Positions 9,001-61,240 of a stretch of DNA of 64,000 nucleotides are shown one piece after another; position 1 is the first letter of the stretch; each line of letters begins with the position of its first letter. The notes below the pieces were generated by a model that was given only the letters and a program-made list of their open reading frames with translations, did not search any database and was not told where the DNA came from. The stretch is from Isoperla grammatica (lineage: Eukaryota > Arthropoda > Insecta > Plecoptera > Perlodidae). The DNA lies in the NCBI GenBank assembly GCA_945910005.1, contig OX246743.1, forward strand, positions 16,888,695 through 16,952,694, read 5' to 3'. The translations under genes and the position numbers were made by a program.

Positions 9001-9126
9001 AGGTACTCTAGTTGAAACAGGGTGGTAGGTAACTATCTGAGGTCAGAATGAGACTATAATAGTAGGTACTCTAGTTGAAACAGGGTGGTAGGTAACTATC
9101 TGAGGTCAGAATGAGACTATAATAGT
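1..9126. repeat. 63-bp tandem satellite array, about 145 copies
   Basis: A 63-bp unit, with core GGTAACTATCTGAGGTCAGA and a GTTGAAACAGGGTGG segment, repeats head to tail from the first base until it breaks at 9127. Most copies differ by 0-2 bases. Recurrent variants are TATCTATC, GTGGTCGG, GACTTTAA, a 3-bp CAC insertion (481, 4018) and a 6-bp insertion (near 1566 and 7055). The array continues left of the window. It sits upstream of the first visible TOP1 exon, so it is probably intronic. Each unit contains TAG followed by GTAACT, which resembles a 5' splice site. The unit has stops in all sense frames and is not coding. Confidence 0.97.
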
Positions 9127-9165
9127 AATGTTGGTTGGGATGTTCAATAAGATACACGAGTGCAG

Positions 9166-9383
9166 GTTGTTGTTCGTGTACACAATGTCAGGCGGCCACC
9201 TCGAGCGGACGATTCAGCCGATCCGGTCGACGACCGAGGAGCTCGAAGAAGTCGCTCCAACTCAAGAAGGCACTCCCGGTCAAAAAGTCGCTCCTGCTCA
9301 AGAAGGCGGTCCCGTTCAAGAAGTTATTCCCGTTCCTCCTCGCGTCGCAGCCGGTCGGGCTCCAGCTGTCGTTCCTCTTCAAG
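9166..9383 (+). CDS. TOP1: TOP1 exon a (inferred): Arg/Ser-rich tract
   Basis: The open frame follows a GTGCAG acceptor and ends at AAG/GTTCGT. It encodes about 72 residues with dense RS dipeptides ([17 protein letters not shown] and onward) after a short acidic stretch (DDSADPVDD). It ends two bases into a codon, and the next exon starts with the one base needed, so the reading continues into the K-rich, KQW start of the TOP1 core. Known TOP1 N-terminal domains are disordered, charged and Lys/Glu/Asp-rich, so an RS-rich version is unusual. The exact 5' boundary (9166 or 9193) is uncertain, and the exon could belong to another transcript. Confidence 0.55.
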
Positions 9384-18300: not shown

Positions 18301-21300
18301 GCTTTCGATGTCAAAACTAGGGTCAAAGGTCAAATTTGTAATTTTTTTAATAATTTTTAATTAAATAATGAAAACTGTTTGCAAGTTTTATCATACACTT
18401 TTAGTAAGGTAAATGTATTATGTTTCTTAAAAAAAAAATTAAATTACCAATTTACCCTTTTTTGATCTTAATTGAGGTCAATTTCCTCAAAATGGGTAAT
18501 TTCTAAAATTTTCTTCGATTTATTGGCCAATATGCATTATATCAACGTACTTACTCATAAATACGTTAAAATGAATAGTTTTTATTGTTATCACATTGTT
18601 TTCATGGTGTTCATTCAAAATGGCGGTCAAAGGTCAATAGGTAAGTATCGTCAAACTAAGTCTAGTAACTAAAATATTACTTGTGGGTACTCTAAAGACG
18701 CAGAATTTTAACTGCAATTACAATAACGAATAACAATATAATGTTTTAATCGTAAAAGAATGTTAATATCATATAACTTGTAAACTACTTAAGATTGTTA
18801 CTGAATTTCTAATTAATGTCCTCAGACATCAGGACGTATTCTTGAATGGGTGTGCAACTGCAACAAAATACATTTTTAAGAAAAGAGCATGACCATGTTG
18901 AGATACGTGATATGATAGTATGATATGATATCTGTCCTAGCAGTCACTGTCTAGTCGTCAAATTAATCAAAATTGAAGTCACCCAAAATTGAAGTCGTCA
19001 GATTAATCACCTTCTGATTCACTGGAATTCTCATGCTGGGTACCGATATTTGGACAGTCCTTCAGCTTACACGCGTGGGTACACCATCTGATTGGCCAAC
19101 ACTTCATCTGATTGGCCAAACACTCATAGGTCGGCATCTTGCAAACACGGCAACAGTTACAGGCTAGGAGATCCATAACGGTCAAAGGTGCTGGAGTTCC
19201 AATCATCCACTCGTTGCTCAGATCTCCTTATGCCGTTGTTTTCCATCCATAGCCACACAGATCAGGAACATCAGGGTTGGCTTCCAAGCAACGTATCAAT
19301 AGATCGTGTTTGGTTGATAACTCGCAGTCGCAGGATATGAAGCAGTAAGCAATCGTTACAAGGTGGTAGCTGATTAGACTTCATATCATCACACTTCTAC
19401 AAAGCTCGTAGCGCAGCAGGTTGACGCATGACAGAGTCGTGGTCAAAGAGCAGAGTTTACAGACAAACTTATCGAGTTTTTTTTGATGACATCGATAGAA
19501 ACTCTCCAGTCCTTACCCATCTTGCTTAGCTGACACAGAAATGCGAGTTTTTTCTCATGATATTCAAAGTTCTATTTTTCCCTTTACCACTGAATGAGCT
19601 CACTCAGGTTGGAACTCATAGTCGTCCCCTACACCTATAGATGCGCCCGTTGTTAACAAGGTAACAGTTTCATACATGTCATTTCCCATATAGAAAACAT
19701 ATCCATAGCAACATTGGGTGCCTATAGGTGAAGTGGCCGACTATGAATTCCAACCTTTGTCACAACCAGTGCATGGAGGTCAGGGAGGGTATTACATACT
19801 TCGAATCCCAACGAACTCGCTAGTTTCTACACATCTTCGAAGTGTGTTTGATTTTTGGTAGTCAAACGTCAACCAGCTGCCCTACGAGCTTTTTAAAAGT
19901 AAATGTGATGATATTAAGTCTAATCAGCTACCACCTTGAAACGATTGTCTACTGCTTCAAATCCTGCGGCTGCGAGCTAACCACCAAACAGCGGTCTGGA
20001 TACGTTGTTTGGACGCCAACCCTGATGTTCCTGATCCGCGTAGCTATGGATGGGAAACCACGGCAGAAGGAGATCTGAGCAACGAGTGGATGATTGGAAC
20101 TCCAGTACCTTTGACCGTTATGGATCTCCTAGTCTGTAACTGTTGCCGTGTTTGCAAGATGCCGACATGTGAGTGTTTGGCCAATCAATAAAAGTGTAAC
20201 CACGCTTGTAAGCTGAAGGATTGTACAAATACCAGTACCAGTACCAGTACCAGTAGCCAGCATGAGAATTCCAGTGAGTCAGAAGGTGATTAATCTGACA
20301 ACTTGGACAGTGACTGCTAAGGTAGATATAACATGATACTAGTATCATATCACGTATCTCAGCATGGTCATGCTCTTTTCTAAAAATGAATTTTGTTGCA
20401 GTTGCACACCCATTTAAGAATACCCTGATGTCTGAGGACATTAATTAGAAATTCAGTAACTATCTTAAGTAGTTTATAAGTTATATGATAACTACATTCT
20501 CTTACGATTAAAACATGATATTATTATTCGTTATTGTAATGGCAGTTAAAATTCTGCGTCTTTAGAGTACCCACAAGTAATATGTTAGTTACTAGACCTA
20601 GTTTGACGATACTTACCTATTGACCTTTGACCGCTATTTTGAATGAATACCGTGAAAACAATGTGATAAAAATAAGAAATATTCATTTTAGCGTATTTAT
20701 GAGTAAGTACGTTGATATAATGAATATTGGCCAATAAATCGAAGAAAATTTTAGAAATTACCCATTTTGAGGAAATTGACCCCAATCAAGGTCAAAAAAG
20801 GTAAGTAGGTAATTTAATTTTTTTTTAATAAACTTTATACATTTCTCTTACTAAAAGAGTATTTTTAAACTTGCAAACAGTTTTCATTATTTAATTAAAA
20901 ATTATTTACAAAATTACAAATTTGACCTTTGACCCTGGTTTTGACATAGAAAGCTGGATTTGCCAGAGATATATCATGGTTTTTTGAAAAGTACTCGTCT
21001 CAAGCTTTCATTTGATATATGTCATCCTTTGACCCAAATTTTATACCGACCAGGCCTTTTTCGAGCGTTATGCAAAGGACTATTAAGCTTTCTACTATAG
21101 ACTATAGATTGCAGTGTTGGGTAAGATACTTTTTTAAGTATCTAGGTATAGGTAACTTTGGTTGAAATGTATCTAGATACAGGTAAAGATACATTTTTTA
21201 AATGTATCTAGGTAAAGATACAAGATACTTACAAAAAGTATCTGTAGGTACAAGGTACTTTTTAAAACGGAACTGGGTTCATAAGATTATTATCCTGGAA

Positions 21301-24300
21301 TAGGATGACCAGAGGTCATAAGTGAAAATACGTTGAAAAATGTAACTATTGAAACATAACACTGTACTGTCATTATTCCTTGTCTTCGACAAGGTTTCCG
21401 CTTAGGTTTGTTTATGAATGTGATTTTAATCCTTACCTACTTATAGTTTGTGGTTCAATGTTTTCCATATTTTATATGCACGATAGGCAGGCTACATACA
21501 TAATTTATACAGGTGTCAAAACTTGTGATTTTTAAGCAAATGGAAGTCCCTCTCATTATGAATATCCAGCTAGGATTCGATTTAAAGTGGGCTCAATATT
21601 ATTCGTTTCAACAACTAGGCCTAAATTGTTCTGCAAGTTTTCAGAACCAAATTAATTTTATTTCAATCACGGTAATTTACACAATTTATGCATATTATAC
21701 GAGTATGCACAACATTGTATTTACAGGTTTGTTCCACACACATAACACATGTTCCAATGTTGTTTCTTACATTTTGTTCTTTAATACCAGCAATGTTTCG
21801 AACATATCGTCTGTTAACCTATTTCTACGTGGAGTTAGAATTTGCCCGCCTGTACTAAATGCCCTTTCAACAGGGGCTGAGGATGGCAAAATCGTATTTT
21901 ACTCAAGAAAAATATGTTTAATTGACAGTGAAAGCAGATTTAGACTTTTCGCGCGATTTTCTCGAACAAGAAATGTTTGTAAATTTGACGATCGCCAGCA
22001 TTTTCTTTTTAAAAATTGAATAAACTTCAAAAATTATCTTTTTACCTATGTATCTGAAAAGCTATAGATACATTGTAAAAAGGATCGAGATACAGGTACA
22101 ATAAATTATAAGTAAGAGAAGAAAAGGAGGCCTGTCTCCACTGGTTGACCAGATCTTACATGATGGCCTGATTAAGCCAAATGTGGGCATATGATAAAAA
22201 AAAAAAAAAAAAGTATCTAGGTATAGGTAAAGGTACACAAAATGTATCTAGATACAAGAACCTAGAATCTAGATAGTCCACAAGACTGATAGATTGTTGG
22301 TGTGCCACTACGTTATGCCCCACTTGTTGCCCATACACTACACTGTTGCCAGGTCACAGGTGGAAGGCACCCCTGACCTATATGGTCCTCAAGACTGATA
22401 GATTGTTAGTGTGCCACTACGTTATGCCCCACTTGTTGCTCATACACTACACTGTTGCCAGGTCACAGGTGGAAGGCACCCCTGACCTAGATGGTCCACA
22501 AGACTGATAGATTGTTGGTGTGCCACTACGTTATGCCCCACTTGTTGCTCATACACTACACTGTTGCCAGGTCACAGGTGGAAGGCACCCCTGACCTAGA
22601 TAGTCCACAACACTGATAGATTGTTGGTGTGCCACTACGTTATGCCCCACTGGTTGCTCATACACTACACTGTTGCCAGGTCACAGGTGGAAGGCACCCC
22701 TGACCTAGATAGTCCACAACACTGATAGATTGTTGGTGTGCCACTACGTTATGCCCCACTTGTTGCTCATACACTACACTGTTGCCAGGTCACAGGTGGA
22801 AGGCACCCCTGACCTAGATAGTCCACAAGACTGATAGATTGTTGGTGTGCCACTACGTTATGCCCCACTTGTTGCTCATACACTACACTGTTGCCAGGTC
22901 ACAGGTGGAAGGCACCCCTGACCTAGATGGTCCACAAGACTGATAGATTGTTGGTGTGCCACTACGTTATGCCCCACTTGTTGCTCATACACTACACTGT
23001 TGCCAGGTCACAGGTGGAAGGCACCCCCTGACCTAGATAGTCCACAACACTGATAGATTGTTGAAGTGCCACTACGTTATGCCCCACTTGTTGCTCATAC
23101 ACTACACTGTTGCCAGGTCACAGGTGGAAGGCACCCCTGACCTAGATAGTCCACAAGACTGATAGATTGTTGGTGTGCCACTACGTTATGCCCCACTTGT
23201 TGCTCATACACTACACTGTTGCCAGGTCACAGGTGGAAGGCACCCCTGACCTAGATAGTCCACAAGACTGATAGATTGTTGGTGTGCCACTACGTTATGC
23301 CCCACTTGTTGCTCATACACTACACTGTTGCCAGGTCACAGGTGGAAGGCAACCCTGACCTAGATAGTCCACAAGACTGATAGATTGTTGGTGTGCCACT
23401 ACGTTATGCCCCACTTGTTGCTCATACACTACACTGTTGCCAGGTCACAGGTGGAAGGCACCCCTGACCTAGATAGTCCACAAGACTGATAGATTGTTGG
23501 TGTGCCACTATGTTATGCCCCACTTGTTGCTCATACACTACACTGTTGCCAGGTCACAGGTGGAAGGCACCCCTGACCTAGATAGTCCAAAACACTGATA
23601 GATTGTTGGTGTGCCACTACGTTATGGCCCACTTGTTGCTCATACACTACACTGTTGCCAGGTCACAGGTGGAAGGCACCCCTGACCTAGATGGTCCACA
23701 AGACTGATAGATTGTTGGTGTGCCACTACGTTATGCCCCACTTGTTGCTCATACACTACACTGTTGCCAGGTCACAGGTGGAAGGCACCCCTGACATAGA
23801 TAGTCCACAAGACTGATAGATTGTTGGTGTGCCACTACGTTTTATGCCCCACTTGTTGCTCATACACTACACTGTTGCCAGGTCACAGGTGGAAGGCACC
23901 CCTGACCTAGATAGTCCACAAGACTGATAGATTGTTGGTGTGCCACTACGTTATGCCCCACTTGTTGCTCATACACTACACTGTTGCCAGGTCACAGGTG
24001 GAAGGCACCCCTGACCTAGATAGTCCACAACACTAAAAGATTGTTGGTGTGCCACTACGTTATGCCCCACTTGTTGCTCATACACTACACTATTGCCAGG
24101 TCACAGGTGGAAGGCACCCCTGACCTATATGGTCCACAAGACTGATAGATTGTTGGTGTGCCACTACGTTATGCCCCACTTGTTGCTCATACACTACACT
24201 GATGCCAGGTCACAGGTGAAAGGCACCCCTGTGGACCTAGATAGTCCACAAGACTGATAGATTGTTGGTGTGCCACTACGTTATGCCCCACTTGTTGCTC

Positions 24301-27300
24301 ATACACTACACTGTTGCCAGGTCACAGGTGGAAGGCACCCCTGTCCTAGATGGTCCACAAGACTGATAGATTGTTGGTGTGCCACTACGTTATGCCCCAC
24401 TTGTTGCTCATACACTACACTGTTGCCAGGTCACAGGTGGAAGGCACCCCTGACCTAGATAGTCCACAACACTGATAGATTGTTGGTGTGCCACTACGTT
24501 ATGCCCCACTTGTTGCTCATACACTACACTGATGCCAGGTCACAGGTGAAAGGCACCCCTGTGGACCTAGATAGTCCACAAGACTGATAGATTGTTGGTG
24601 TGCCACTACGTTATGCCCCACTTGTTGCTCATACACTACACTATTGCCAGGTCACAGGTGGAAGGCACCCCTGACCTAGATAGTCCACAAGACTGATAGA
24701 TTGTTGGTGTGCCACTACGTTATGCCCCACTTGTTGCTCATACACTACACTGATGCCAGGTCACAGGTGAAAGGCACCCCTGTGGACCTAGATAGTCCAC
24801 AAGACTGATAGATTGTTGGTGTGCCACTACGTTATGCCCCACTTGTTGCTCATACACTACACTGTTGCCAGGTCACAGGTGGAAGGCACCCCTGACCTAG
24901 ATAGTCCACAACACAGATAGATTGTTGGTGTGCCACTACGTTATGCCCCACTTGTTGCTCATACACTACACTGTTGCCAGGTCACAGGTGGAAGGCACCC
25001 CTGACCTAGATAGTCCACAAGACTGATAGATTGTTGGTGTGCCACTACGTTATGCCCCACTTGTTGCTCATACACTACACTGATGCCAGGTCACAGGTGG
25101 AAGGCACCCCTGACCTAGATAGTCCACAAGACTGATAGATTGTTGGTGTGCCACTACGTTATGCCCCACTTGTTGCTCATACACTACACTGTTGCCAGGT
25201 CACAGGTGGAAGGCACCCCTGACCTAGATGGTCCACAAAACTGATAGATTGTTGGTGTGCCACTACGTTATGTCCCACTTGTTGCTCATACACTACACTG
25301 TTGCCAGGTCACAGGTGGAAGGCACCCCTGACCTAGATAGTCCACAACACTGATAGATTGTTGAAGTGCCACTACGTTATGCCCCACTTGTTGCTCATAC
25401 ACTACACTGTTGCCAGGTCACAGGTGGAAGGCACCCCTGACCTAGATGGTCCACAAGACTGATAGATTGTTGGTGTGCCACTACGTTATGCCCCACTTGT
25501 TGCTCATACACTACACTGTTGCCAGGTCACAGGTGGAAGGCACCCCTGACCTAGATGGTCCACAACACTGATAGATTGTTGGTGTGCCACTACGTTATGC
25601 CCCACTAGTTGCTCATACACTACACTGTTGCCAGGTCACAGGTGGAAGGCACCCCTGACCTAGATAGTCCACAACACTGATAGATTGTTGGTGTGCCACT
25701 ACGTTATGCCCCACTAGTTGCTCATACACTACACTGTTGCCAGGTCACAGGTGGAAGGCACCCCTGACCTAGATAGTCCACAAGACTGATAGATTTGGTG
25801 TGCCACTACGTTATGCCCCACTTGTTGCTCATACACTACACTGATGCCAGGTCACAGGTGGAAGGCACCCCTGACCTAGATAGTCCACAAGACTGATAGA
25901 TTGTTGGTGTGCCACTACGTTATGCCCCACTTGTTGCTCATACACTACACTGTTGCCAGGTCACAGGTGGAAAGCACCCCTGACCTAGATAGTCCACAAC
26001 ACTGATAGATTGTTGGTGTGCCACTACGTAATGCCCCACTTGTTGCTCATACACTACACTGTTGCCAGGTCACATGTGGAAGGCACCCCTGACCTAGATA
26101 GTCCACAACACTGATAGATTGTTGGTGTGCCACTTCGTTATGCCCCACTTGTTGCTCATACACTACACTGTTGCCAGGTCACAGGTGGAAGGCACCCCTG
26201 ACCTACATGGTCCACAAGACTGATAGATTGTTGGTGTGCCACTACGTTATGCCCCACTTGTTGCTCATACACTACACTGTTGCCAGGTCACAGGTGGAAG
26301 GCACCCCTGACCTAGAGAGTCCACAAGACTGATAGATTGTTGGTGTGCCACACCGTTATGCCCCACTTGTTGCTCATACACTACACTGTTGCCAGGTCAC
26401 AGGTGGAAGGCACCCCTGACCTAGATAGTCCACAAGACCGATAGATTGTTGGTGTGCCACTACGTTATGCCCCACTTGTTGCTCATACACTACACTGTTG
26501 CCAGGTCACAGGTGGAAAGTACCCCTGACCTAGATAGTCCACAAGACTGATAGATTGTTGGTGTGCCACTACGTTATGCCCCACTTGTTGCTCATACACT
26601 ACACTGTTGCCAGGTCACAGGTGGAAGGCACCCCAGACCTAGATAGTCCACAAGACTGATAGATTGTTGGTGTGCCACTACTTTATGCCCCACTTGTTGC
26701 TCATACACTACACTGTTGCCAGGTCACAGGTGGAAGGCACCCCTGACCTAGATGGTCCACAAGACTGATAGATTGTTGGTGTGCCACTACGTTATGCCCC
26801 ACTTGTTGCTCATACACTACACTGTTGCCAGGTCACAGGTGGAGGGCACCCCTGCCCTAGATGGTCCACAAGACTGATAGATTGTTGGTGTGCCACTACG
26901 TTATGCCCCACTTGTTGCTCATACACTACACTGTTGCCAGGTCACAGGTGGAAGGCACCCCTGACCTAGATAGTCCACAAGACTGATAGATTGTTGGTGT
27001 GCCACTACGTTATGCCCCACTTGTTGCTCATACACTACACTGTTGCCAGGTCACATGTGGAAGGCACCCCTGACCTAGATAGTCCACAACACTGATAGAT
27101 TGTTGGTGTGCCACTACGTTATGCCCCACTTGTTGCTCATACACTACACTGTTGCCAGGTCACAGGTGGAAGGCACCCCTGACCTAGATAGTCCACAAGA
27201 CTGATAGATTGTTGGTGTGCCACTACGTTATGTCCCACTTGTTGCTCATACACTACACTGTTGCCAGGTCACATGTGGAAGGCACCCCTGACCTAGATAG

Positions 27301-30300
27301 TCCACAAGACTGATAGATTGTTGGTGTGCCACTACGTTATGCCCCACTTGTTGCTCATACACTACACTGTTGCCAGGTCACAGGTGGAAGGCACCCCTGA
27401 CCTAGATAGTCTAAAAGACTGATAGATTGTTGGTGTGCCACTACGTTATGCCCCACTTGTTGCTCATACACTACACTGTTGCCAGGTCACAGGTGGAAGG
27501 CACCCCTGACCTAGATAGTCCACAAAACTGATAGATTGGTTGTGTGCCACTACGTTATGCCCCACTTGTTGCTCATACACTACACTGTTGCCAGGTCACA
27601 GGTGGAAGGCACCCCTGACCTAGATAGTCCACAACACTGATAGATTGTTGGTGTGCCACTACGTTATGCCCCACTTGTTGCTCATACACTACACTGTTGC
27701 CAGGTCACAGGTGGAAGGCACCCCTGACCTAGATGGTCCACAAGACTGATAGTTTGTGGTGTGCCACTACGTAATGCCCCACTTGTTGCTCATACACTAC
27801 ACTGTTGCTAGGTCACAATTGGAAGGCACCCCTGACCTAGATAGTCCACAACACTGATAGATTGTTGGTGTGCCACTACGTTATGCCCCACTAGTTGCTT
27901 ATACACTACACTGTTGCCAGGTCACAGGTGGAAGGCACCCCTGACCTAGATAGTCCACAACACTGATAGATTGTTGGTGTGCCACTACGTTATGCCCCAC
28001 TAGTTGCTCATACACTACACTGTTGCCAGGTCACAGGTGGAAGGCACCCCTGACCTAGATGGTCCACAAGACTGATAGATTGTTGGTGTGCCACTACGTT
28101 ATGCCCCACTTGTTGCTCATACACTACACTGTTGCTAGGTCACAGGTGGAAGGCACCCCTGACCTAGATGGTCCACAACACTGATAGATTGTTGGTGTGC
28201 CACTACGTTATGCCCCACTAGTTGCTCATACACTACACTGTTGCCAGGTCACAGGTGGAAGGCACCCCTGACCTAGATGGTCCACAACACTGATAGATTG
28301 TTGGTGTGCCACTACGTAATGCCCCACTTGTTGCTCATACACTACACTGTTGCCAGGTCACAGGTGGAAGGCACCCCTGACCTAGATAGTCCACAAGACT
28401 GATAGATTGTTGGTGTGCCACTACGTTATGCCCCACTTGTCTCTCATACACTACACTGTTGCCAGGTCACAGGTGGAAGGCACCTTTGACCTAGATAGTC
28501 CACAAGACTGATAGATTGTTGGTGTGCCACTACGTTATGCCCCACTTGTCTCTCATACACTACACTGTTGCCAGGTCACAGGTGGAAGGCACCCCTGTCC
28601 TAGATAGTCCACAACACTGATAGATTGTTGGTGTGCTACTACGTTATGCCCCACTTGTTGCTCATACACTACACTGTTGCCAGGTCACAGGTGGAAGGCA
28701 CCCCTGACCTAGAGAGTCCACAAGACTGATAGATTGTTGGTGTGCCACTACGTTATGCCCCACTTGTTGCTCATACACTACACTGTTGCCAGGTCACAGG
28801 TGGAAGGCACTCCTGACCTAGATAGTCCACAACACTGATAGATTGTTGGTGTGCCACTACGTTATGCCCCACTTGTTGCTCATACACTACACTGTTGCCA
28901 GGTCACAGGTGGAAGGCACCCCTGACCTAGATAGTCCACAAGACTGATAGATTGTTGGTGTGCCACACTACGTTATGCCCCACTTGTTGCTCATACACTA
29001 CACTGTTGCCAGGTCACAGGTGGAAGGCACCCCTTACCTAGATAGTCCACAACACTGATAGATTGTTGGTGTGCCACTATGTTATGCCCCACTTGTTGCT
29101 CATACACTACACTGTTGCCAGGTCACAGGTGGAGGGCACCCCTGCCCTAGATGGTCCACAAGACTGATAGATTGTTGGTGTGCCACTACGTTATGTCCCA
29201 CTTGTTGCTCATACACTACACTGTTGCCAGGTCACAGGTGGAAGGCACCCCTGACCTAGATAGTCCACAAGACTGATAGATTGTTGGTGTGCCACTACGT
29301 TATGCCCCACTTGTTGCTCATACACTACACTGTTGCCAGGTCACAGGTGGAAGGCACCCCTGACCTACATGGTCCACAACACTGATAGATTGTTGGTGTG
29401 CCACTACGTTATGCCCCACTTGTTGCTCATACACAACACTGTTGCCAGGTCACAGGTGGAAGGCACAGGTGGAAGGCACCCCTGACCTAGATAGTCCACA
29501 ACACTGATAGATTGTTGGTGTGCCACTACGTTATGCCCCACTTGTTGCTCATACACTACACTGTTGCCAGGTCACAGGTGGAAGGCACCCCTGACCTAGA
29601 TAGTCCACAAGACTGATAGATTGTTGGTGTGCCACTACGTTATGTCCCACTTGTTGCTCATACACTACACTGTTGCCAGGTCACAGGTGGAAGGCACCCC
29701 TGACCTAGATAGTCCACAAGACTGATAGATTGTTGGTGTGCCACTACGGTTTGCCCCACTTGTTGCTCATACACTACACTGTTGCCAGGTCACAGGTGGA
29801 AGGCACCCCTGACCTATATGGTCCTTCAGACTGATAGATTGTTGGTGTGCCACTACGTTATGCCCCACTGGTTGCTCATACACTACACTGTTGCCAGGTC
29901 ACAGGTGGAAGGCACCCCTGACCTAGATAGTCTAAAAGACTGATAGATTGTTGGTGTGCCACTACGTTATGCCCCACTTGTTGCTCATACACTACACTGT
30001 TGCCAGGTCACAGGTGGAAGGCACCCCTGACCTAGATAGTCCACAAAACTGATAGATTGGTTGTGTGCCACTACGTTATGCCCCACTTGTTGCTCATACA
30101 CTACACTGTTGCCAGGTCACATGTGGAAGGCACCCCTGACCTAGATAGTCCACAACACTGATAGATTGTTGGTGTGCCACTACGTTATGCCCCACTTGTT
30201 GCTCATACACTACACTGTTGCCAGGTCACAGGTGGACAACACCTCTGACCTAGATGGTCCACAAGACTGATAGTTTGTGGTGTGCCACTACGTAATGCCC

Positions 30301-33300
30301 CACTTGTTGCTCATACACTACACTGTTGCTAGGTCACAGGTGGAAGGCACCCCTGACCTAGATGGTCCACAACACTGATAGATTGTTGGTGTGCCACTAC
30401 GTTATGCCCCACTTGTTGCTCATACACTACACTGTTGCCAGGTCACAGGTGGAAGGCACCCCTGACCTAGATGGTCCACAACACTGATAGATTGTTGGTG
30501 TGCCACTACGTTATGCCCCACTTGTTGCTCATACACTACACTGTTGCCAGGTCACAGGTGGAAGGCACCCCTGACCTAGATAGTCCACAACACTGAGAGA
30601 TTGTTGGTGTGCCACTACGTTATGCCCCACTTGTCTCTCATACACTACACTGTTGCCAGGTCACAGGTGGAAGGCACCCTTGTCCTAGATAGTCCACAAG
30701 ACTGATAGATTGTTGGTGTGCCACTACGTTATGCCCCACTTGTTGCTCATACACTACACTGTTGCCAGGTCACAGGTGGAAGGCACCCCTGACCTAGAGA
30801 GTCCACAAGACTGATAGATTGTTGGTGTGCCACTACGTTATGCCCCACTTGTTGCTCATACACTACACTGTTGCCAGGTCACAGGTGGAAGGCACCCCTG
30901 ACCTAGATAGTCCACAACACTGATAGATTGTTGGTGTGCCACTACGTTATGCCCCACTTGTTGCTCATACACTACACTGTTGCCAGGTCACAGGTGGAAG
31001 GCACCCCTGACCTAGATAGTCCACAAGACTGATAGATTGTTGGTGTGCCACACTACGTTATGCCCCACTTGTTGCTCATACACTACACTGTTGCCAGGTC
31101 ACAGGTGGAAGGCACCCCTTACCTTGATAGTCCACAACACTGATAGATTGTTGGTGTGCCACTATGTTATGCCCCACTTGTTGCTCATACACTACACTGT
31201 TGCCAGGTCACAGGTGGAAGGCACCCCTGACCTAGATAGTCCACAACACTGATAGATTGTTGGTGTGCCACTACGTTATGCCCCACTTGTTGCTCATACA
31301 CTACACTGTTGCCAGGTCACAGGTGGAGGGCACCCCTGCCCTAGATGGTCCACAAGACTGATAGATTGTTGGTGTGCCACTACGTTATGCCCCACTTGTT
31401 GCTCATACACTACACTGTTGCCAGGTCACAGGTGGAAGGCACCCCTGACCTAGATAGTCCACAAGACTGATAGATTGTTGGTGTGCCACTACGTTATGCC
31501 CCACTTGTTGCTCATACACTACACTGTTGCCAGGTCACATGTGGAAGGCACCCCTGACCTAGATAGTCCACAACACTGATAGATTGTTGGTGTGCCACTA
31601 CGTTATGCCCCACTTGTTGCTCATACACTACACTGTTGCCAGGTCACAGGTGGAAGGCACCCCTGACCTAGATAGTCCACAAGACTGATAGATTGTTGGT
31701 GTGCCACTACGTTATGTCCCACTTGTTGCTCATACACTACACTGTTGCCAGGTCACATGTGGAAGGCACCCCTGACCTAGATAGTCCACAAGACTGATAG
31801 ATTGTTGGTGTGCCACTACGTTATGCCCCACTTGTTGCTCATACACTACACTGTTGCCAGGTCACAGGTGGAAGGCACCCCTGACCTAGATAGTCTAAAA
31901 GACTGATAGATTGTTGGTGTGCCACTACGTTATGCCCCACTTGTTGCTCATACACTACACTGTTGCCAGGTCACAGGTGGAAGGCACCCCTGACCTAGAT
32001 AGTCCACAAAACTGATAGATTGGTTGTGTGCCACTACGTTATGCCCCACTTGTTGCTCATACACTACACTGTTGCCAGGTCACAGGTGGAAGGCACCCCT
32101 GACCTAGATAGTCCACAACACTGATAGATTGTTGGTGTGCCACTACGTTATGCCCCACTTGTTGCTCATACACTACACTGTTGCCAGGTCACAGGTGGAA
32201 GGCACCCCTGACCTAGATGGTCCACAACACTGATAGATTGTTGGTGTGCCACTACGTTATGCCCCACTTGTTGCTCATACACTACACTGTTGCCAGGTCA
32301 CAGTTGGAAGGCACCCCTGACCTAGATGGTCCACAAGACTGATAGTTTGTGGTGTGCCACTACGTAATGCCCCACTTGTTGCTCATACACTACACTGTTG
32401 CCAGGTCACAGGTGGAAGGCACCCCTGACCTAGATAGTCCACAACACTGAGAGATTGTTGGTGTGCCACTACGTTATGCCCCACTTGTCTCTCATACACT
32501 ACACTGTTGCCAGGTCACAGGTGGAAGGCACCTTTGACCTAGATAGTCCACAAGACTGATAGATTGTTGGTGTGCCACTACGTTATGCCCCACTTGTCTC
32601 TCATACACTACACTGTTGCCAGGTCACAGTTGGAAGGCACCCCTGTCCTAGATAGTCCACAACACTGATAGATTGTTGGTGTGCTACTACGTTATGCCCC
32701 ACTTGTTGCTCATACACTACACTGTTGCCAGGTCACAGGTGGAAGGCACCCCTGACCTAGAGAGTCCACAAGACTGATAGATTGTTGGTGTGCCACTACG
32801 TTATGCCCCACTTGTTGCTCATACACTACACTGTTGCCAGGTCACAGGTGGAAGGCACCCCTGACCTAGATAGTCCACAACACTGATAGATTGTTGGTGT
32901 GCCACTACGTTATGCCCCACTTGTTGCTCATACACTACACTGTTGCCAGGTCACAGGTGGAAGGCACCCCTGACCTAGATAGTCAATGTCAATAACATGT
33001 ATAAAAAATAACACAATAGTCAATACAATGTGCCACACTACGTTATGCCCCACTTGTTGCTCATACACTACACTGTTGCCAGGTCACAGGTGGAAGGCAC
33101 CCCTTACCTAGATAGTCCACAACACTGATAGATTGTTGGTGTGCCACTATGTTATGCCCCACTTGTTGCTCATACACTACACTGTTGCCAGGTCACAGGT
33201 GGAAGGCACCCCTGACCTAGATAGTCCACAACACTGATAGATTGTTGGTGTGCCACTACGTTATGCCCCACTTGTTGCTCATACACTACACTGTTGCCAG

Positions 33301-36300
33301 GTCACAGGTGGAAGGCACCCCTGACCTAGATGGTCCACAAGACTGATAGATTGTTGGTGTGCCACTACGTTATGCCCCACTTGTTGCTCATACACTACAC
33401 TGTTGCCAGGTCACAGGTGGAAGGCACCCCTGACCTAGATAGTCCACAACACTGATAGATTGTTGGTGTGCCACTACGTTATGCCCCACTTGTTGCTCAT
33501 ACACTACACTGTTGCCAGGTCACAGGTGGAAGGCACCCCCGACCTAGATAGTCCACAACACTGATAGATTGTTGGTGTGCCACTACGTTATGCCCCACTT
33601 GTTGCTCATACACTACACTGTTGCCAGGTCACAGGTGGAAGGCACCCCTGACCTAGATAGTCCACAAGACTGATAGATTGTTGGTGTGCCACTACGTTAT
33701 GCCCCACTTGTTGCTCATACACTACACTGTTGCCAGGGCACAGGTGGAAGGCACCCCTGACCTAGATAGTCCACAAGACTGATAGATTGTTGGTGTGCCA
33801 CTACGTTATGCCCCACTTGTTGCTCATACACTACACTGTTGCCAGGTCACAGGTGGAAGGCACCCCTGTCCTAGATAGTCCACAAGACTGATAGATTGTT
33901 GGTGTGCCACTTCGTTATGCCCCACTTGTTGCTCATACACTACACTGTTGCCAGGTCACAGGTGGAAGGCACCCCTGACCTAGATAGTCCACAAGACTGA
34001 TAGAATGTTGGTGTGCCACTTGTTGCTCATACACTACACTGTTTCCAGGTCACAGGTGGAAGGCACCCCTGACCTATATGGTCCACAAGACTGATAGATT
34101 GTTGGTGTGCCACTTGTTGCTCATACACTACACTATTGCCAGGTCACAGGTGGAAGGCACCCCTGACCTAGATAGTCCACAAGACTGATAGATTGTTGGT
34201 GTGCCACTACGTTATGCCCCACTTGTTGCTCATACACTACACTGATGCCAGGTCACAGGTGGAAGGCACCCCTGTGGACCTAGATAGTCCACAAGACTGA
34301 TAGATTGTTGGTGTTCCACTACGTTATGCCCCACTTGTTGCTCATACACTACACTGTTGCCAGGTCACAGGTGGAAGGCACCCCTGACCTAGATAGTCCA
34401 CAACACAGATAGATTGTTGGTGTGCCACTACGTTATGCCCCACTTGTTGCTCATACACTACACTGTTGCCAGGTCACAGGTGGAAGGCACCCCTGACCTA
34501 GATAGTCCACAAGACTGATAGATTGTTGGTGTGCCACTACGTTATGCCCCACTTGTTGCTCATACACTACACTGTTGCCAGGTCACAGGTGGAAGGCACC
34601 CCTGACCTAGATGGTCCACAAAACTGATAGATTGTTGGTGTGCCACTACGTTATGTCCCACTTGTTGCTCATACACTACACTGTTGCCAGGTCACAGGTG
34701 GAAGGCACCCCTGACCTAGATAGTCCACAACACTGATAGATAGTTGAAGTGCCACTACGTTATGCCCCACTTGTTGCTCATACACTACACTGTTGCCAGG
34801 TCACAGGTGGAAGGCACCCCTGACCTAGATGGTCCACAAGACTGATAGATTGTTGGTGTGCCACTACGTTATGCCCCACTTGTTGCTCATACACTACACT
34901 GTTGCCAGGTCACAGGTGGAAGGCACCCCTGACCTAGATAGTCCACAACACTGATAGATTGTTGGTGTGCCACTACGTTATGCCCCACTAGTTGCTCATA
35001 CACTACACTGTTGCCAGGTCACAGGTGGAAGGCACCCCTGACCTAGATAGTCCACAACACTGATAGATTGTTGGTGTGCCACTACGTTATGCCCCACTAG
35101 TTGCTCATACACTACACTGTTGCCAGGTCACAGGTGGAAGGCACCCCTGACCTAGATAGTCCACAACACTGATAGATTGTTGGTGTGCCACTACGTTATG
35201 CCCCACTTGTTGCTCATACACTACACTGATGCCAGGTCACAGGTGGAAGGCACCCCTGACCTAGATAGTCCACAAGACTGATAGATTGTTGGTGTGCCAC
35301 TACGTTATGCCCCACTTGTTGCTCATACACTACACTGTTGCCAGGTCACAGGTGGAAGGCACCCCTGACCTAGATAGTCCACAACACTGATAGATTGTTG
35401 GTGTGCCACTACGTAATGCCCCACTTGTTGCTCACACACTACACTGTTGCCAGGTCACATGTGGAAGGCACCCCTGACCTAGATAGTCCACAACACTGAT
35501 AGATTGTTGGTGTGCCACTACGTTATGCCCCACTTGTTGCTCATACACTACACTGTTGCCAGGTCACAGGTGGAAGGCACCCCTGACCTACATGGTCCAC
35601 AAGACTGATAGATTGTTGGTGTGCCACTACGTTATGCCCCACTTGTTGCTCATACACTACACTGTTGCCAGGTCACATGTGGAAGGCACCCCTGACCTAG
35701 ATAGTCCACAAGACTGATAGATTGTTGGTGTGCCACTACGTTATGCCCCACTTGTTGCTCATACACTACACTGTTGCCAGGTCACAGGTGGAAGGCACCC
35801 CTGACCTAGAGAGTCCACAAGACTGATAGATTGTTGGTGTGCCACTACGTTATGCCCCACTTGTTGCTCATACACTACACTGTTGCCAGGTCACAGGTGG
35901 AAGGCACCCCTGACCTAGATAGTCCACAAGACCGATAGATTGTTGGTGTGCCACTACGTTATGCCCCACTTGTTGCTCATACACTACACTGTTGCCAGGT
36001 CACAGGTGGAAAGTACCCCTGACCTAGATAGTCCACAAGACTGATAGATTGTTGGTGTGCCACTACGTTATGCCCCACTTGTTGCTCATACACTACACTG
36101 TTGCCAGGTCACAGGTGGAAGGCACCCCAGACCTAGATAGTCCACAAGACTGATAGATTGTTGGTGTGCCACTACTTTATGCCCCACTTGTTGCTCATAC
36201 ACTACACTGTTGCCAGGTCACAGGTGGAAGGCACCCCTGACCTAGATGGTCCACAAGACTGATAGATTGTTGGTGTGCCACTACGTTATGCCCCACTTGT

Positions 36301-39300
36301 TGCTCATACACTACACTGTTGCCAGGTCACAGGTGGAGGGCACCCCTGCCCTAGATGGTCCACAAGACTGATAGATTGTTGGTGTGCCACTACGTTATGC
36401 CCCACTTGTTGCTCATACACTACACTGTTGCCAGGTCACAGGTGGAAGGCACCCCTGACCTAGATAGTCCACAAGACTGATAGATTGTTGGTGTGCCACT
36501 ACGTTATGCCCCACTTGTTGCTCATACACTACACTGTTGCCAGGTCACATGTGGAAGGCACCCCTGACCTAGATAGTCCACAACACTGATAGATTGTTGG
36601 TGTGCCACTACGTTATGCCCCACTTGTTGCTCATACACTACACTGTTGCCAGGTCACAGGTGGAAGGCACCCCTGACCTAGATAGTCCACAAGACTGATA
36701 GATTGTTGGTGTGCCACTACGTTATGTCCCACTTGTTGCTCATACACTACACTGTTGCCAGGTCACAGGTGGAAGGCACCCCTGACCTAGATAGTCCACA
36801 AGACTGATAGATTGTTGGTGTGCCACTACGTTATGCCCCACTTGTTGCTCATACACTACACTGTTGCCAGGTCACAGGTGGAAGGCACCCCTGACCTAGA
36901 TAGTCCACAAGACTGATAGATTGTTGGTGTGCCACTACGTTATGCCCCACTTGTTGCTCATACACTACACTGTTGCCAGGTCACAGGTGGAAGGCACCCC
37001 TGACCTAGATAGTCCACAAGACTGATAGATTGTTGGTGTGCCACTACGTTATGCCCCACTTGTTGCTCATACACTACACTTTTGCCAGGTCACAGGTGGA
37101 AGGCACCCCTGACCTAGATAGTCCACAAGACTGATAGATTGTTGGTGTGCCACTACGTTATGCCCCACTTGTTGCTCATACACTACACTGTTGCCAGGTC
37201 ACATGTGGAAGGCACCCCTGACCTAGATAGTCCACAAGACTGATAGATTGTTGGTGTGCCACTACGTTATGCCCCACTTGTTGCTCATACACTACACTGT
37301 TGCCAGGTCACAGGTGGAAGGCACCCCTGACCTAGATAGTCTAAAAGACTGATAGATTGTTGGTGTGCCACTACGTTATGCCCCACTTGTTGCTCATACA
37401 CTACACTGTTGCCAGGTCACAGGTGGAAGGCACCCCTGACCTAGATAGTCCACAAAACTGATAGATTGTTGGTGTGCCACTACGTTATGCCCCACTTGTT
37501 GCTCATACACTACACTGATGCCAGGTCACAGGTGGAAGGCACCCCTGACCTAGATAGTCCACAAGACTGATAGATTGTTGGTGTGCCACTACGTTATGTC
37601 CCACTTGTTGCTCATACACTACACTGTTGCCAGGTCACAGGTGGAAGGCACCCCTGACCTAGATAGTCCACAAGACTGATAGTTTGTGGTGTGCCACTAC
37701 GTAATGCCCCACTTGTTGCTCATACACTACACTGTTGCCAGGTCACAGGTGGAAGGCACCCCTGACCTAGATAGTCCACAACACTGATAGATTGTTGGTG
37801 TGCCACTACGTTATGCCCCACTTGTTGCTCATACACTACACTGTTGCCAGGTCACAGGTGGAAGGCACCCCTGACCTAGATGGTCCACAACACTGATAGA
37901 TTGTTGGTGTGCCACTACGTTATGCCCCACTTGTTGCTCATACACTACACTGTTGCCAGGTCACAGTTGGAAGGCACCCCTGACCTAGATGGTCCACAAG
38001 ACTGATAGTTTGTGGTGTGCCACTACGTAATGCCCCACTTGTTGCTCATACACTACACTGTTGCCAGGTCACAGGTGGAAGGCACCCCTGACCTAGATGG
38101 TCCACAAGACTGATAGATTGTTGGTGTGCCACTACGTTATGCCCCACTTGTTGCTCATACACTACACTGTTGCCAGGTCACAGGTGGAAGGCACCCCTGA
38201 CCTAGAGAGTCCACAAGACTGATAGATTGTTGGTGTGCCACTACGTTATGCCCCACTTGTTGCTCATACACTACACTGTTGCCAGGTCACAGGTGGAAGG
38301 CACCCCTGACCTAGATAGTCCACAACACTGATAGATTGTTGGTGTGCCACTATGTTATGCCCCACTTGTTGCTCATACACTACACTGTTGCCAGGTCACA
38401 GGTGGAAGGCACCCCTGACATAGATAGTCCACAAGACTGATAGATTGTTGGTGTGCCACTACGTTATGCCCCACTTGTTGCTCATACACTACACTGTTGC
38501 CAGGTCACAGGTGGAGGGCACCCCTGACCTAGATAGTCCACAAGACTGATAGATTGTTGGTGTGCCACTACGTTATGCCCCACTTGTTGCTCATACACTA
38601 CACTGTTGCCAGGTCACAGGTGGAAGGCACCCCTGACCTAGATAGTCCACAAGACTGATAGATTGTTGGTGTGCCACACTACGTTATGCCCCACTTGTTG
38701 CTCATACACTACACTGTTGCCAGGTCACAGGTGGAAGGCACCCCTTACCTTGATAGTCCACAACACTGATAGATTGTTGGTGTGCCACTATGTTATGCCC
38801 CACTTGTTGCTCATACACTACACTGTTGCCAGGTCACAGGTGGAAGGCACCCCTGACCTAGATAGTCCACAACACTGATAGATTGTTGGTGTGCCACTAC
38901 GTTATGCCCCACTTGTTGCTCATACACTACACTGTTGCCAGGTCACAGGTGGAAGGCACCCCTGACCTAGATGGTCCACAAGACTGATAGATTGTTGGTG
39001 TGCCACTACGTTATGCCCCACTTGTTGCTCATACACTACACTGTTGCCAGGTCACAGGTGGAAGGCACCCCTGACCTAGATAGTCCACAACACTGATAGA
39101 TTGTTGGTGTGCCACTACGTTATGCCCCACTTGTTGCTCATACACTACACTGTTGCCAGGTCACAGGTGGAAGGCACCCCCGACCTAGATAGTCCACAAC
39201 ACTGATAGATTGTTGGTGTGCCACTACGTTATGCCCCACTTGTTGCTCATACACTACACTGTTGCCAGGTCACAGGTGGAAGGCACCCCTGACCTAGATA

Positions 39301-42300
39301 GTCCACAAGACTGATAGATTGTTGGTGTGCCACTACGTTATGCCCCACTTGTTGCTCATACACTACACTGTTGCCAGGTCACAGGTGGAAGGCACCCCTG
39401 ACCTAGATAGTCCACAACACTGATAGATTGTTGGTGTGCCACTACGTTATGCCCCACTTGTTGCTCATACACTACACTGTTGCCAGGTCACAGGTGGAAG
39501 GCACCCCCGACCTAGATAGTCACTGATATATTGTTGGTGTGCCACTACGTTATGCCCCACTTGTTGCTCATACACTACACTGTTGCCAGGTCACAGGTGG
39601 AAGGCACCCCTGACCTAGATAGTCCACAAGACTGATAGATTGTTGGTGTGCCACTACGTTATGCCCCACTTGTTGCTCATACACTACACTGTTGCCAGGT
39701 CACAGGTGGAAGGCACCCCTGACCCAGATAGTCCACAACACTGATAGATTGTTGGTGTGCCACTACGTTATGCCCCACTTTTTGCTCATACACTACACTG
39801 TTGCCAGGTCACAGGTGGAAGGCACCCCTGACCTAGATAGTCCACAAGACTGATAGATTGTTGGTGTGCCACTACGTTATGCCCCACTTGTTGCTCATAC
39901 ACTACACTGTTGCCAGGTCACAGGTGGAAGGCACCCCTGTCCTAGATGGTCCACAAGACTGATAGATTGTTGGTGTGCCACTACGTTATGCCCCACTTGT
40001 TGCTCATACACTACACTGTTGCCAGGTCACAGGTGGAAGGCACCCCTGACCTAGATAGTCCACAAGACTGATAGATTGTTGGTGTGCCACTACGTTATGC
40101 CCCACTTGTTGCTCATACACTACACTGTTGCCAGGTCACAGGTGGAAGGCACCCCTGTCCTAGATAGTCCACAACACTGATAGATTGTTGGTGTGCCACA
40201 CGTTATGCCCCACTTGTTGCTCATACACTTCACTGTTGCCAGGTCACAGGTGGAAGGCACCCCTGACCTAGATAGTCCACAAGACTGATAGATTGTTGGT
40301 GTGCCACTACGTTATGCCCCACTTGTTGCTCATACACTACACTGTTGCCAGGTCACAGGTGGAAGGCACCCCTGACCCAGATAGTCCACAAGACTGATAG
40401 ATTGTTGGTGTGCCACTACGTTATGCCCCACTTGTTGCTCATACACTACACTGTTGCCAGGTCACAGGTGGAAGGCACCCCTGACCTAGATAGTCCACAA
40501 GACTGATAGATTGTTGGTGTGCCACTACGTTATGCCCCACTTGTTGCTCATACACTACACTGTTGCCAGGTCACAGGTGGAAGGCACCCCTGACCTAGAT
40601 AGTCCACAAGACTGATAGATTGTTGGTGTGCCACTACGTTATGCCCCACTTGTTGCTCATACACTACACTGTTGCCAGGTCACAGGTGGAAGGCACCCCC
40701 GACCTAGATAGTCCACAAGACTGATAGATTGTTGGTGTGCCACTACGTTATGCCCCACTTGTTGCTCATACACTACACTGTTGCCAGGTCACAGGTGGAA
40801 GGCACCCCTGACCTAGATAGTCCACAAGACTGATAGATTGTTGGTGTGCCCACTACGTTATGCCCCACTTGTTGCTCATACACTACACTGTTGCCAGGTC
40901 ACAGGTGGAAGGCACCCCTGACCTATATGGTCCACAAGACTGATAGATTGTTGGTGTGCCACTTGTTGCTCATACACTACACTGTTGCCAGGTCACAGGT
41001 GGAAGGCCATCCGCCACGACAACACTGTCACGTGGTTGGCGCGTTGGAAGGAGAACATCCTAGGCGGAGTCAAGTACATGTTACTAAACTCTTCCTCGAA
41101 GCTAAAGTGCCAACAGGACGAACACAAATACGAGTTGGCGCGTCAACTACGCAAGTGCATCAAACACGTTCGGAAACAGTACCGCCAGGGATGGAGGAGC
41201 ACAAATAAGGGCGTCAGGCAGCTGTCTGTGGCTCTCTACTTCATAGATCAGGTACACGAAGACTCGTTTGCAAGATGCTATTGGTCTGAAGACCTTCCTT
41301 ATCAACAGTTGTTTTTACTCCATTGAAGAATTCTCTTTTTTAGTTTTATGCTGGTTTCCCATTTTATTGTATAGTTTAATCGTATTTATTTATTGTATTT
41401 TTTATTGTACTTATCCTATTATTTTAAAGTTACAATCATAGACTGTAAGTTAGTTCTAAGTTTTTGACCATGTAAAATATCCTAAATTAGTCTTGCTCAG
41501 GGATATACTTACAATAAACGAACATTACATTACATTACACACAAATCAGTAATCACTTTCATATAACTAGACTGTAAAGTCCTGCCGCACGCACCTGTTA
41601 TGCGTCACGTGTAGCGCTACACGTGACGCGTCAGTCGATTGCCACGAGCCTCCCACGCTCGTTCCCCGGCTGTCCGCTAGGGGAGCACCATGCGGCGGTG
41701 AACCCTCACTGGTGGTGGCGGCGCGCACACATACAAAACCCTACACTACATCCCCTAAAACAGATATACTAAACTAAACTAAAACTTGAAATACTCGTAG
41801 GCAAAAGATGAATAGAAAGCTAGCTAAAACTAAATCCTACAAACTAAAACAACTGGTGAAGGCTGCATCACTCTTGGTAGCGAAGTGGCTTGGCGCGCAC
41901 TCGCTGTGACCGTCGGAGGCCTTCTTCTAGACCCACGGCCGAACTCTTCGAAGCCTGTATAGGGCTTGCTACCGTTGACGCATCCGGCTCTCCCGTATTC
42001 ATGCTGCTGTTGTACCGACGCACCACTGACGAGTTCCGGGTGTAGTCAACTCCTTCCGGTGATCGAACAGTCACTGCATTTCCATGTTTGGCCACCACCC
42101 GATAGGGTGTGGGACAGAGAGGAGTTGCCAACTTGTGAGGAGTCTGTTGCTTCACCAATACCTCATCTCCCACAACAAGATCGCGCTCAACAGCCCTCCT
42201 AGACATATCAGCATATTCTTTCATATGAGCCTTAGCCACCATGGCATCCCGGTCCCGCACCTCCGTATCCACAGGCCCATGGGCAGCGATGCTGGGCACT

Positions 42301-45300
42301 TTCTCCCTGAGCTCTCGCCCAAATAACAGCTTAGCCGGGGAAACTCCTGTGGTGGTATGCGGAGTCGTGCGATATGCAAAGAGGTATTGCAATAATGCGC
42401 AATTCAGGTCTTGACTATTGTTGTGGGCAATCTTCAAGCATCATACTATGGAGCGGTTCTGGCGTTCAACTTCGCCGTTAGCTTGGAGATGAAGGGGCGT
42501 GGTTGCGTGCAACTGAAACCCATTCATGCGACAGAAATCCTTGAAATCTACGCTCGAAAACTGAGGCCCTCTGTCTGCGCGTAGAGCTGACGGTATTCCG
42601 AAGCACGCAAAGATCTCCCTCAAGAGAGCTATAGTCGTCTCGGTAGTAGTAGATTTAGTTAGGCATGCCTCTATATAGCGACTGTAGTAATCGACCACTA
42701 CTAGGATATACTGGCCATTAGGCAGAGGCCCCAAATAGTCTACTGCAAGGTAAACCCATGGCTTATCGGGCAGCTCCGTGCACCTAAGAGGTTCTGGTGG
42801 CTCGAAAGCACTCACTATTTGGTAACCATGGCATTTGCGGCAAAACTTTTCTACATCGGTGGCTAAGGTAGGCCACCACACCTTGGTGCGTAGTCGCTGT
42901 TTGGTCTTAATTACTCCCATGTGCCCCTCATGCGCTAATTCTAAAATCCGGTCACGCATGGATGCCGGCACGAGGATGCGTGTATCTCGTAGCACAAGCT
43001 CATCGTAAATGGAGAGCTCGTGGCCTATCAGCTGGTAAGTACGTAGTTCGGCAGGCCACTTCCCGCTACGAATAGCCGCCTTGAGTTTCTTCGTCGTTGG
43101 ATTCAAACGGCACTCCTCTTGCAGTTCTTTTATCCCGACTGCACAAGGTGCCGAGTTCTCCACCACCCACCGAATGTAGTCGTCATCGTTCTGGTCCCGT
43201 GGTTGGGATCGTTTGAATTGAACAAGCCTGGAGAGGGGATCCGCTATGTTTTGGCTGCCTGGCTTGTATACCAACTTAAAGTTGTACTCTTGCAAGCGTA
43301 AAACCCATCTTTCTACCCTAGCACAACGCTTCACTCTCTTGGAGAACAGAAACTCCAAAGGCTTGTGGTTCGTAATGAGTGTGAAAGGTGGGCCCCCAAT
43401 AAGATAGTACTTAAACCGCTCGCAGCCATGAACAAGAGCCAAGGCTTCTTTTTCAATCTGGCTATATCTTGCCTCGACTTCAGTAAGTGCTTTGCTGGCA
43501 TACTCAATCACCCTTTGCACCCCATCATGCTCCTGGAGTAAAAGGGCCCCTGTAGCCTGAGGGCCTCCATCAACTATGACAGTGGAAGGCACTCCTTTTC
43601 TGTAAAAGGCAAGTACAGGTTGAGTTGTTAACACTTTTATTATCTGTGACATGGCCTTGCCTGTTCTGAGCCCCAAAGAAACTCTGTGTTGGTTTTAAGT
43701 AGCTTCCGCAGGGGAAACGTGAGCGCAGAATAGTTTGGAATAAATCTCGCACTATACGCCACAAGTCCAAGCAGGCTATAGCCAGTTCCTGTGTGTTGGT
43801 GGGTGCACGGAAACTTTGTACCGCCTCTATTCTACTAGTGAGTGGCTGGACTCCTTTTGCTGAAAAAAGGTGTCCCCTGAACTCAACCGCTGGCTGGCTC
43901 AAAACACATTTATCTAGGTTCAGGGTAAGGGCCCGGTCTTTCAATGTGTGTAACAGGGCATGTAATCTTGCATCATGCTCTTGCTGGGTCTGTCCCCAGG
44001 TAATTTTCCACTCCCTCGCATGTTGCTGTGACCTGTTCTATTACCTTTTTGAAAATTTTCGAGGCACACTTAAGCCCGAAGATCAAAGTTTTGTAACGCA
44101 TTAGGCCAAAAGAGGTGAAAAAGGTAGTGATTTCCCGTGATTGTTTCGTTAACTCCAGCTGATGGAATGCGTCATTCATATCAAGCACTGAGAAGTTGGC
44201 GCGTCAACTACGCAAGTGCATCAAACACGTTCGGGAACAGTACCGCCAGGGATGGAAGTGTACAAATAAGGGCGTCAGGCAGCTGTCTGTGGCTCTCTAC
44301 TTCATAGATCAGGTACACGAAGACTCGTTTGCAAGATGCTATTGGTCTGAAGACCTTCCTTATCAACAGTTGTTTTTACTCCATTGAAGAATACTCTTTT
44401 TTAGTTTAATGCTGGTTTCCCATTTTATTGTATAGTATAATCGTATTTATTTATTGTATTTTTTATTGTACTTATCCTATTATTTTAAAGTTACAATCAT
44501 AGACTGTAAATTAGTTCTAAGTGTTTGACGATGTAAAATATCCTAAATGAGTCTTGCTCAGGGATATACTTACAATAAATGAACATTACATTACATTACA
44601 CACAAATCACTCTCATATAACTAGACCTGGGTAGTAACTTAACAGAAGTTGAGCCAGGAAATTTGTTAGCATATTTTCAATTATGGGTACTTCTCATATC
44701 ATTGAAAATAATTCCAAACACAATGCCTGCCAAGGCCTCATTTACTTAAAATTAATTACCAAACTGTCACGAATGAGTAACATACCTGCTGCGAAGATGA
44801 AGTGTTGAGCGTCTGTTTAGTAAGTAACTAACATGGTCAGCGTTCTACATTTTGTCGACGGTTGCAGCTGTCTTTGCGAGCCGGGAACGAGAAGGGGGAG
44901 GGTCGAGCAGACACCGTGGGCTGTTGTTCGCTGAAGGTGAAGCACGTCAAGCTCAAAGGAAATGGTGAGTCAAACTTATGCGATGACATGTTTCGTTTTA
45001 TTTTGCCATTGTTTTGGTTCAATTCATTCAAAATTCATTTCAATACTTCCTATTTACATCCCACATATATAATATATAAGTACATAAATGGCAAATGAAA
45101 CAATTTCGTTAACTTTGCCTTTTAGAATTACCTCGCCGAAAGCAATCATTTCATGTCACGACTTTCCGTTATTGTTTTTGTCACAGATATATGAACTCAG
45201 TTTAACTTTAAAGGTTTGATCTTCAACTATATACTTCACCCTACTGTACCTAATACCCTAATACCCACCGCTAGTAATATTGTTAGATAGCGAGAACCTA

Positions 45301-50782: not shown

Positions 50783-61240
<10,458 letters not shown>

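Follow-up and report, generated by a model that had tools for sequence, protein, structure and literature searches.

A satellite array in an intron of a TOP1-like gene of Isoperla grammatica repeats the predicted 3' splice site of the exon that it adjoins

A stretch of 64,000 nucleotides from the plecopteran Isoperla grammatica (GenBank assembly GCA_945910005.1, contig OX246743.1, positions 16,888,695 to 16,952,694, forward strand), referred to here as the window, contains a gene like that for DNA topoisomerase I (TOP1) in which one intron is filled largely by a tandem satellite. Each of the 172 units of this satellite carries the predicted 3' splice site (acceptor) of the next exon, exon e, and the last unit is continuous with that exon; the array is confirmed as tandem copies of the predicted exon e 3' splice site. 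Judged from the sequence, there is about an even chance (probability roughly 0.5) that the acceptor nearest the exon is the one used, and that it would be selected through exon definition. Positions are those of the window, and exons are lettered a to k; the features on which the argument depends are as follows.

17858..18071, + strand: exon d, predicted; its donor is at 18071 or 18077, with the frame unchanged
18072..40991, + strand: intron d, 22,920 bp, containing the array
22269..40991, + strand: 109-bp satellite array of 172 units, with the predicted exon e 3' splice site in each (Tandem Repeats Finder [TRF], unit segmentation, and counts)
40923..41007, + strand: terminal unit, shortened by a 15-bp deletion and continuous with exon e, its acceptor AG ending at 40991 (segmentation)
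40992..41251, + strand: exon e, predicted, 260 nt, with the donor CAG/GTACAC (frame and TOP1 homology)

TRF reports a single 109-bp array at 22269-40963 with 171.4 copies and 95% matches, and wrap-around alignment carried up to exon e divides it into 172 units, of which 149 measure exactly 109 bp; the satellite accounts for 18.7 of the 22.9 kb of intron d. The original prediction held that the array derives from the 3' splice site of exon e in a TOP1-family gene, which segmentation and homology bear out, and its array coordinates were correct to within a few bases. It also placed the acceptor TTGCCAG and the first 13 exon bases in every unit. The acceptor AG is indeed kept in 172 of 172 units, but the exact heptamer is found in 160 (the others being ATGCCAG in 8, TTGCTAG in 3, and TTTCCAG in 1); the start of the exon is repeated as supposed, but over 16 bases (GTCACAGGTGGAAGGC), exact in 145 of the 172 units. 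From 40923 the terminal unit passes without a break into the open reading frame of exon e at 40992, as had been proposed, and its 15-bp deletion occurs elsewhere only in units 108 and 109. The array is not a chance pattern.

Divergence from the unit consensus amounts to 1.9% of positions (171 units, the terminal unit being excluded). There are 88 distinct unit types, runs of identical units do not exceed 8 at any fixed lag, and no prominent higher-order repeat was found when lags of 1-45 were compared; the lowest mean unit distances fall at lags above 120, where only the two ends of the array are compared. Such an array could have arisen by unequal exchange or replication slippage, starting from one exon e boundary. 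Constraint on the acceptor within the array was considered and rejected: in 166 of the 172 units (the terminal unit and five with awkward insertions or deletions being excluded), the 20 bases ahead of the exon show 6 variant types where the median for 20-base stretches is 13; counts as low as 6 occur in 7 of 109 stretches, which makes the result suggestive only, and the 7-base acceptor is unexceptional (rank 19 of 109).

The consequences of choosing one acceptor or another are predicted by the reading frame set by the exon d donor. The position 18077 originally given for this donor is matched by 18071 as an equally possible choice (a 6-base ambiguity), and the frame is identical either way. 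In this frame 168 acceptors were translated; units 51, 54, 74, and 105 had no match to the search string and were not read. A stop follows after 9 codons for 149 of the 168, and for 17 more it comes after 3 to 52 codons, still within the array. The acceptor of unit 171 opens 103 codons and then reaches a stop at 41206, within exon e but out of its frame, and among the acceptors translated only the last gives exon e in frame. The expectation that any earlier acceptor would lead to a stop within about ten codons thus applies to 153 of the 168 and fails for unit 171, but its corollary, that earlier acceptors lose all catalytic residues, agrees with the translations, in which the stops precede all five active-site residues.

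On sequence the acceptors differ clearly in one respect, their distance to the donor at 41251: the exon would measure 260 nt from the last acceptor, 354 nt from unit 171, 464 nt from unit 170, and 18,899 nt from the first. The last acceptor is likely to be the one used because it alone would pair with the next donor across a short exon of 260 nt. The introns beside exon e are 22,920 bp and 3,616 bp, and with long introns exon definition is expected, the switch being put at 200-250 nt as quoted in PMC9225289. Carranza and others report that exon definition favors the sites closest across the exon, from minigene tests of 5' sites (PMC9225289). Exon definition, in which an acceptor pairs with the donor at the far side of its exon, would select the last unit. 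The last few upstream units, if used, would yield ever longer exons (354 nt, 464 nt, and upward) that contain premature stops, targets for nonsense-mediated decay (NMD); more distant acceptors would mostly be ignored for lack of a good donor nearby, and a minority of transcripts would be lost to NMD.

Several points weigh against use of the last acceptor through exon definition. For 3' sites, PMC9225289 describes an overall preference for the upstream site in both of its event groups, which exon definition with two long introns is said to lessen, not to reverse. The 33 bases through the AG of the final acceptor are identical to those of 136 of the 171 others, so the core sequence cannot mark it as the last. 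The 15-bp deletion of the final unit lies upstream of these shared bases and cuts its AG-free stretch to 43 nt, as against 58-59 nt in units 1 and 171; the polypyrimidine tract is ordinary (9 pyrimidines in 16 positions). Within the terminal unit, an AG at 40945-40946 also gives exon e in frame and open; no good tract was seen ahead of it. The unit consensus holds a donor-like CAG/GTGGAA 7 nt past the acceptor. Its U1 pairing energy is -7.6 kcal/mol, where the exon e donor has -7.1 kcal/mol and the predicted donors of the gene range from -4.3 to -10.7 kcal/mol. For 135 of the 172 acceptors, the first donor-like site more than 20 nt away is found at a distance of 116 nt and would delimit a pseudo-exon; since 116 nt is an ordinary exon size, exon definition alone does not account for the skipping of such pseudo-exons. 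Most of them would carry stops, and exon e may require enhancers of its own, or many transcripts may be lost. The nearest precedent, the human ABCA7 repeat considered below, concerns donors and not acceptors. Concealment of upstream acceptors by unusual RNA structure was tried as a further explanation and is not supported, because the predicted folding of the final four units together with the beginning of exon e does not surpass that of shuffled sequences (z score +1.37; 93 of 100 shuffles fold as well).

The remaining predicted exons of the gene are the following.

9166..9383, + strand: exon a, possible, RS-rich, in frame with exon b and the TOP1 core, with a poor and uncertain acceptor
9635..10700, + strand: exon b, predicted, 109 nt with the donor of the first unit of its own array and 1066 nt with that of the last
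11383..11610, + strand: exon c, predicted
44868..44964, + strand: exon f, predicted, with the first catalytic arginine (LRAGNEK)
46609..46748, + strand: exon g, predicted, with the catalytic lysine (GKDSIRY)
46853..46996, + strand: exon h, predicted, with the second catalytic arginine (VFRTYNAS)
47480..47682, + strand: exon i, predicted, with the catalytic histidine (CNHQR) and a GC donor at 47682-47683 (a GC-AG intron)
47950..48102, + strand: exon j, predicted, with the active-site tyrosine (KLNYLDP)
48435..48537, + strand: exon k, predicted, holding the stop codon

Every predicted intron is GT-AG or GC-AG, no stop or frame shift interrupts the exons in the window, and the 5' end of the gene lies beyond it. 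Joined, the exons give a protein of 549 residues, which matches solved TOP1 structures over residues 6-549, best 1nh3 (E 6e-189), a structure of human TOP1. The predicted protein, with the possible exon a and one 87-bp unit of exon b included in the query, matches the Pfam domains Topoisom_I_N, Topoisom_I, and Topo_C_assoc in that order (E 2.6e-81, 4.6e-85, and 4.2e-31). Residues R274, K312, R370, H414, and Y507, whose catalytic roles we assume from TOP1, occupy invariant columns in an alignment of 10 sequences (the window gene and those of nine other animals), and all five are encoded in exons f to j, downstream of the array. With these domains and active-site residues, the product is predicted to be a eukaryotic DNA topoisomerase I (type IB).

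The original prediction was silent on the strong divergence of this gene, which has 53-57% identity to nine TOP1s that are themselves 71-93% identical to one another; no relative above 56% identity was found among the 120 matches listed (drawn from 7,995 scored candidates, of which 7,630 passed). When drift to 75% identity was simulated without constraint (n=200), a mean of 8.5 stops and a minimum of 2 accumulated. Because there are 0 stops in the 549 codons of the real gene despite its 53-57% identity, the gene has been under selective constraint for most of its history. Among other TOP1s, the deposited protein of Trichinella zimbabwensis has a long internal duplication that starts in the part matching exon e; it could be real, or a fault of annotation or assembly.

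The array of intron d is not the only duplication at an exon boundary of this gene. A second boundary array, likewise absent from the original prediction, lies in exon b at the donor side and in frame, and two further duplications involve exons i and e.

9660..10703, + strand: tandem array in exon b, 12 units of 87 bp, each 29 codons and in frame (TRF)
47367..47401, + strand: duplicate of the exon i acceptor, lying 82 bp ahead of the predicted site
44194..44609, + strand: duplicate of 41133-41548 (404 of 416 bases, 97%), covering the 3' half of exon e and the exon e donor

The 87-bp unit encodes TLFHRGPYFAPPYVRLPRTVKFCYNGHQV with few changes and belongs to the DNA-binding fragment. Its units end in CAG/GTAACG (10), CAT/GTAACG (1), and, in the last unit, CAG/GTAGGC (1). 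Because the unit length is divisible by three and the units contain no stops, any donor from first to last keeps the frame, with 1-12 repeats included. Under the same exon-definition rule, the first donor would be chosen, giving the shortest exon (109 nt) and a protein of normal length, and later donors would insert whole 29-residue repeats with no frame shift. The exon i acceptor copies (47367-47401 and 47447-47483) are 92% identical over 37 columns, upstream context included, and from the upstream copy the frame stops after four codons. Taken together, the cases of exons b, e, and i make boundary duplication a repeated event in this gene.

Several other repeats lie in or beside the gene. A fragment of Ty3/Gypsy type is present on the minus strand between 41133-41548 and its copy at 44194-44609; the retroelement search brought up no close relative, the best identity being 56% among the 120 matches listed. 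An array of 63-bp units (4-9127, about 144 copies) touches the left edge of the window and ends 38 bp ahead of the likely exon a; no match to a TOP1 exon was found as its source, and there is a single weak match at 58706-58736. Within intron d, ahead of the 109-bp array, an inverted repeat (18219-19432 and 19861-21048) has arms of about 1.2 kb that are 86% identical, perhaps those of a mobile element.

The same data admit other readings of the 109-bp array. The original prediction offered three outcomes (strong choice of the final site, recursive splicing, or heavy loss to NMD), and they are not equally well supported. Many transcripts might splice into the array or take up satellite exons of 116 nt and so fall to NMD, and a longer array would then mean lower output of this TOP1 copy. 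The AG of all 172 units, the stop after 9 codons from 149 of 168 acceptors, and the 116-nt donor-like site of 135 of 172, with U1 pairing matching that of the exon e donor, are consistent with such losses. A parallel is offered by human ABCA7, where a 25-bp variable number tandem repeat (VNTR) of about 12 to 427 units has as its first two bases the donor of exon 18; longer VNTRs go with lower expression (33% between extreme samples) and with more skipping of exon 19 (PMC5954066). In the same gene, the isoform retaining one VNTR unit stays at 2 +/- 1% independent of VNTR size, and transcripts of this kind increase with cycloheximide (PMC5954066). That constancy argues against length-dependent loss, and a gene long under constraint would not easily bear a heavily damaging array; heavy loss of transcripts to NMD, with array length as a brake on output, is possible but unlikely. 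It is likewise doubtful that this is a TOP1 duplicate disabled in recent times, with an array that is neutral because correct splicing is no longer needed. The strong divergence (53-57% identity), the 12-unit array in exon b, the partial copy of exon e, the doubled exon i acceptor, and a 5' end outside the window would suit this account, but the window exons are open with GT-AG or GC-AG sites, the five active-site residues are present, and the 87-bp array stays in frame.

Two further accounts concern the handling of the intron and the integrity of the contig. Recursive splicing could use AG/GT junctions in the array as ratchet points, and both CCAG/GTCACA and CACAG/GTGGAA are such junctions, the latter recurring through the majority of units (CAGGTGGA has 156 matches across the array), with U1 pairing of GTGGAA at -7.6 kcal/mol, moderate but inside the donor range of the gene. 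GTAAGT would be expected at ratchet points of the fly kind, however, and no GT site in the consensus unit has it, and GTCACA, directly after the acceptor, pairs more weakly at -5.6 kcal/mol; support for recursive splicing is thin, and it is highly unlikely. An assembly error in the array or at its junction with exon e is also very unlikely. Although near-identical units extending over 18.7 kb are difficult to assemble, simple copying is opposed by the 88 unit types with no identical run above 8 at a fixed lag and by the terminal 15-bp deletion common only to units 108 and 109, and the frame of exon e and its match to TOP1 carry on from the terminal acceptor.

The diverged TOP1-like gene adjoins a well-conserved gene on the minus strand (50900-59200), that for COP9 signalosome subunit 1 (CSN1). 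The CSN1 of the window has 87% identity to that of the orthopteran Anabrus simplex over the query, and in a CSN1 tree of 27 rows it is placed beside Neocloeon with weak support (41/70); by themselves these comparisons would point to a likely insect, perhaps one of the Polyneoptera.

Studies of competing splice sites usually deal with only a few, and here there are 172 acceptors in one gene. Because these acceptors mostly share the same core and only one choice is in frame, position is largely separated from local sequence, and the gene would offer a natural experiment on how a cell chooses among near-identical splice sites. Use of the last acceptor would mean that the earliest one loses its first-come advantage to exon definition or to exon enhancers; the donors repeated in exon b provide the mirror test within the same transcript. 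It can also be imagined, though it is quite improbable, that the gene carries two ladders, one of 172 acceptors on which the wrong rungs read give premature stops and one of 12 in-frame donors, so that array size is a heritable dial on the enzyme; were that so, array length would set both the amount of surviving mRNA and the number of 29-residue repeats in the DNA-binding core.

In Drosophila, recursive splice sites are AG/GT junctions within a long intron, as are those of the array. The array differs from them in that its regenerated donors are not GTAAGT and recur in about 156 near-identical copies of a satellite. The gene in the window has the three Pfam domains and the active-site residues in common with eukaryotic TOP1, and what sets it apart is its 53-57% identity to the nine TOP1s compared. 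No description of tandem-acceptor arrays was found among the titles and abstract openings listed by searches of the open-licence PMC literature with the terms used, nor, in those searches, any precedent for a 172-copy acceptor array paired with a donor array in one gene. The gigantic introns of the Drosophila Y-linked genes kl-3 and kl-5 resemble intron d in having satellite inside an intron of a protein-coding gene; they are of megabase size (PMC6508621), whereas intron d has 22.9 kb. In intron d the splice site is part of the repeat unit.

A tandem array with a splice site in its unit is already known from the VNTR in intron 18 of human ABCA7. As in that case, the array of the TOP1-like gene abuts an exon and carries a splice site of that exon in each unit, and use of the next unit, which in ABCA7 shifts the frame and yields an NMD target, is predicted to bring premature stops (PMC5954066). 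The VNTR holds a 5' site in 25-bp units, whereas the array described here holds a 3' site and 16 exon bases in 109-bp units, 172 times over. For ABCA7 the splicing was measured (PMC5954066), whereas that of the TOP1-like gene is predicted from its letters; by analogy, ABCA7 provides a measured counterpart for reliable use of the site nearest the exon, as suggested here for exon e.

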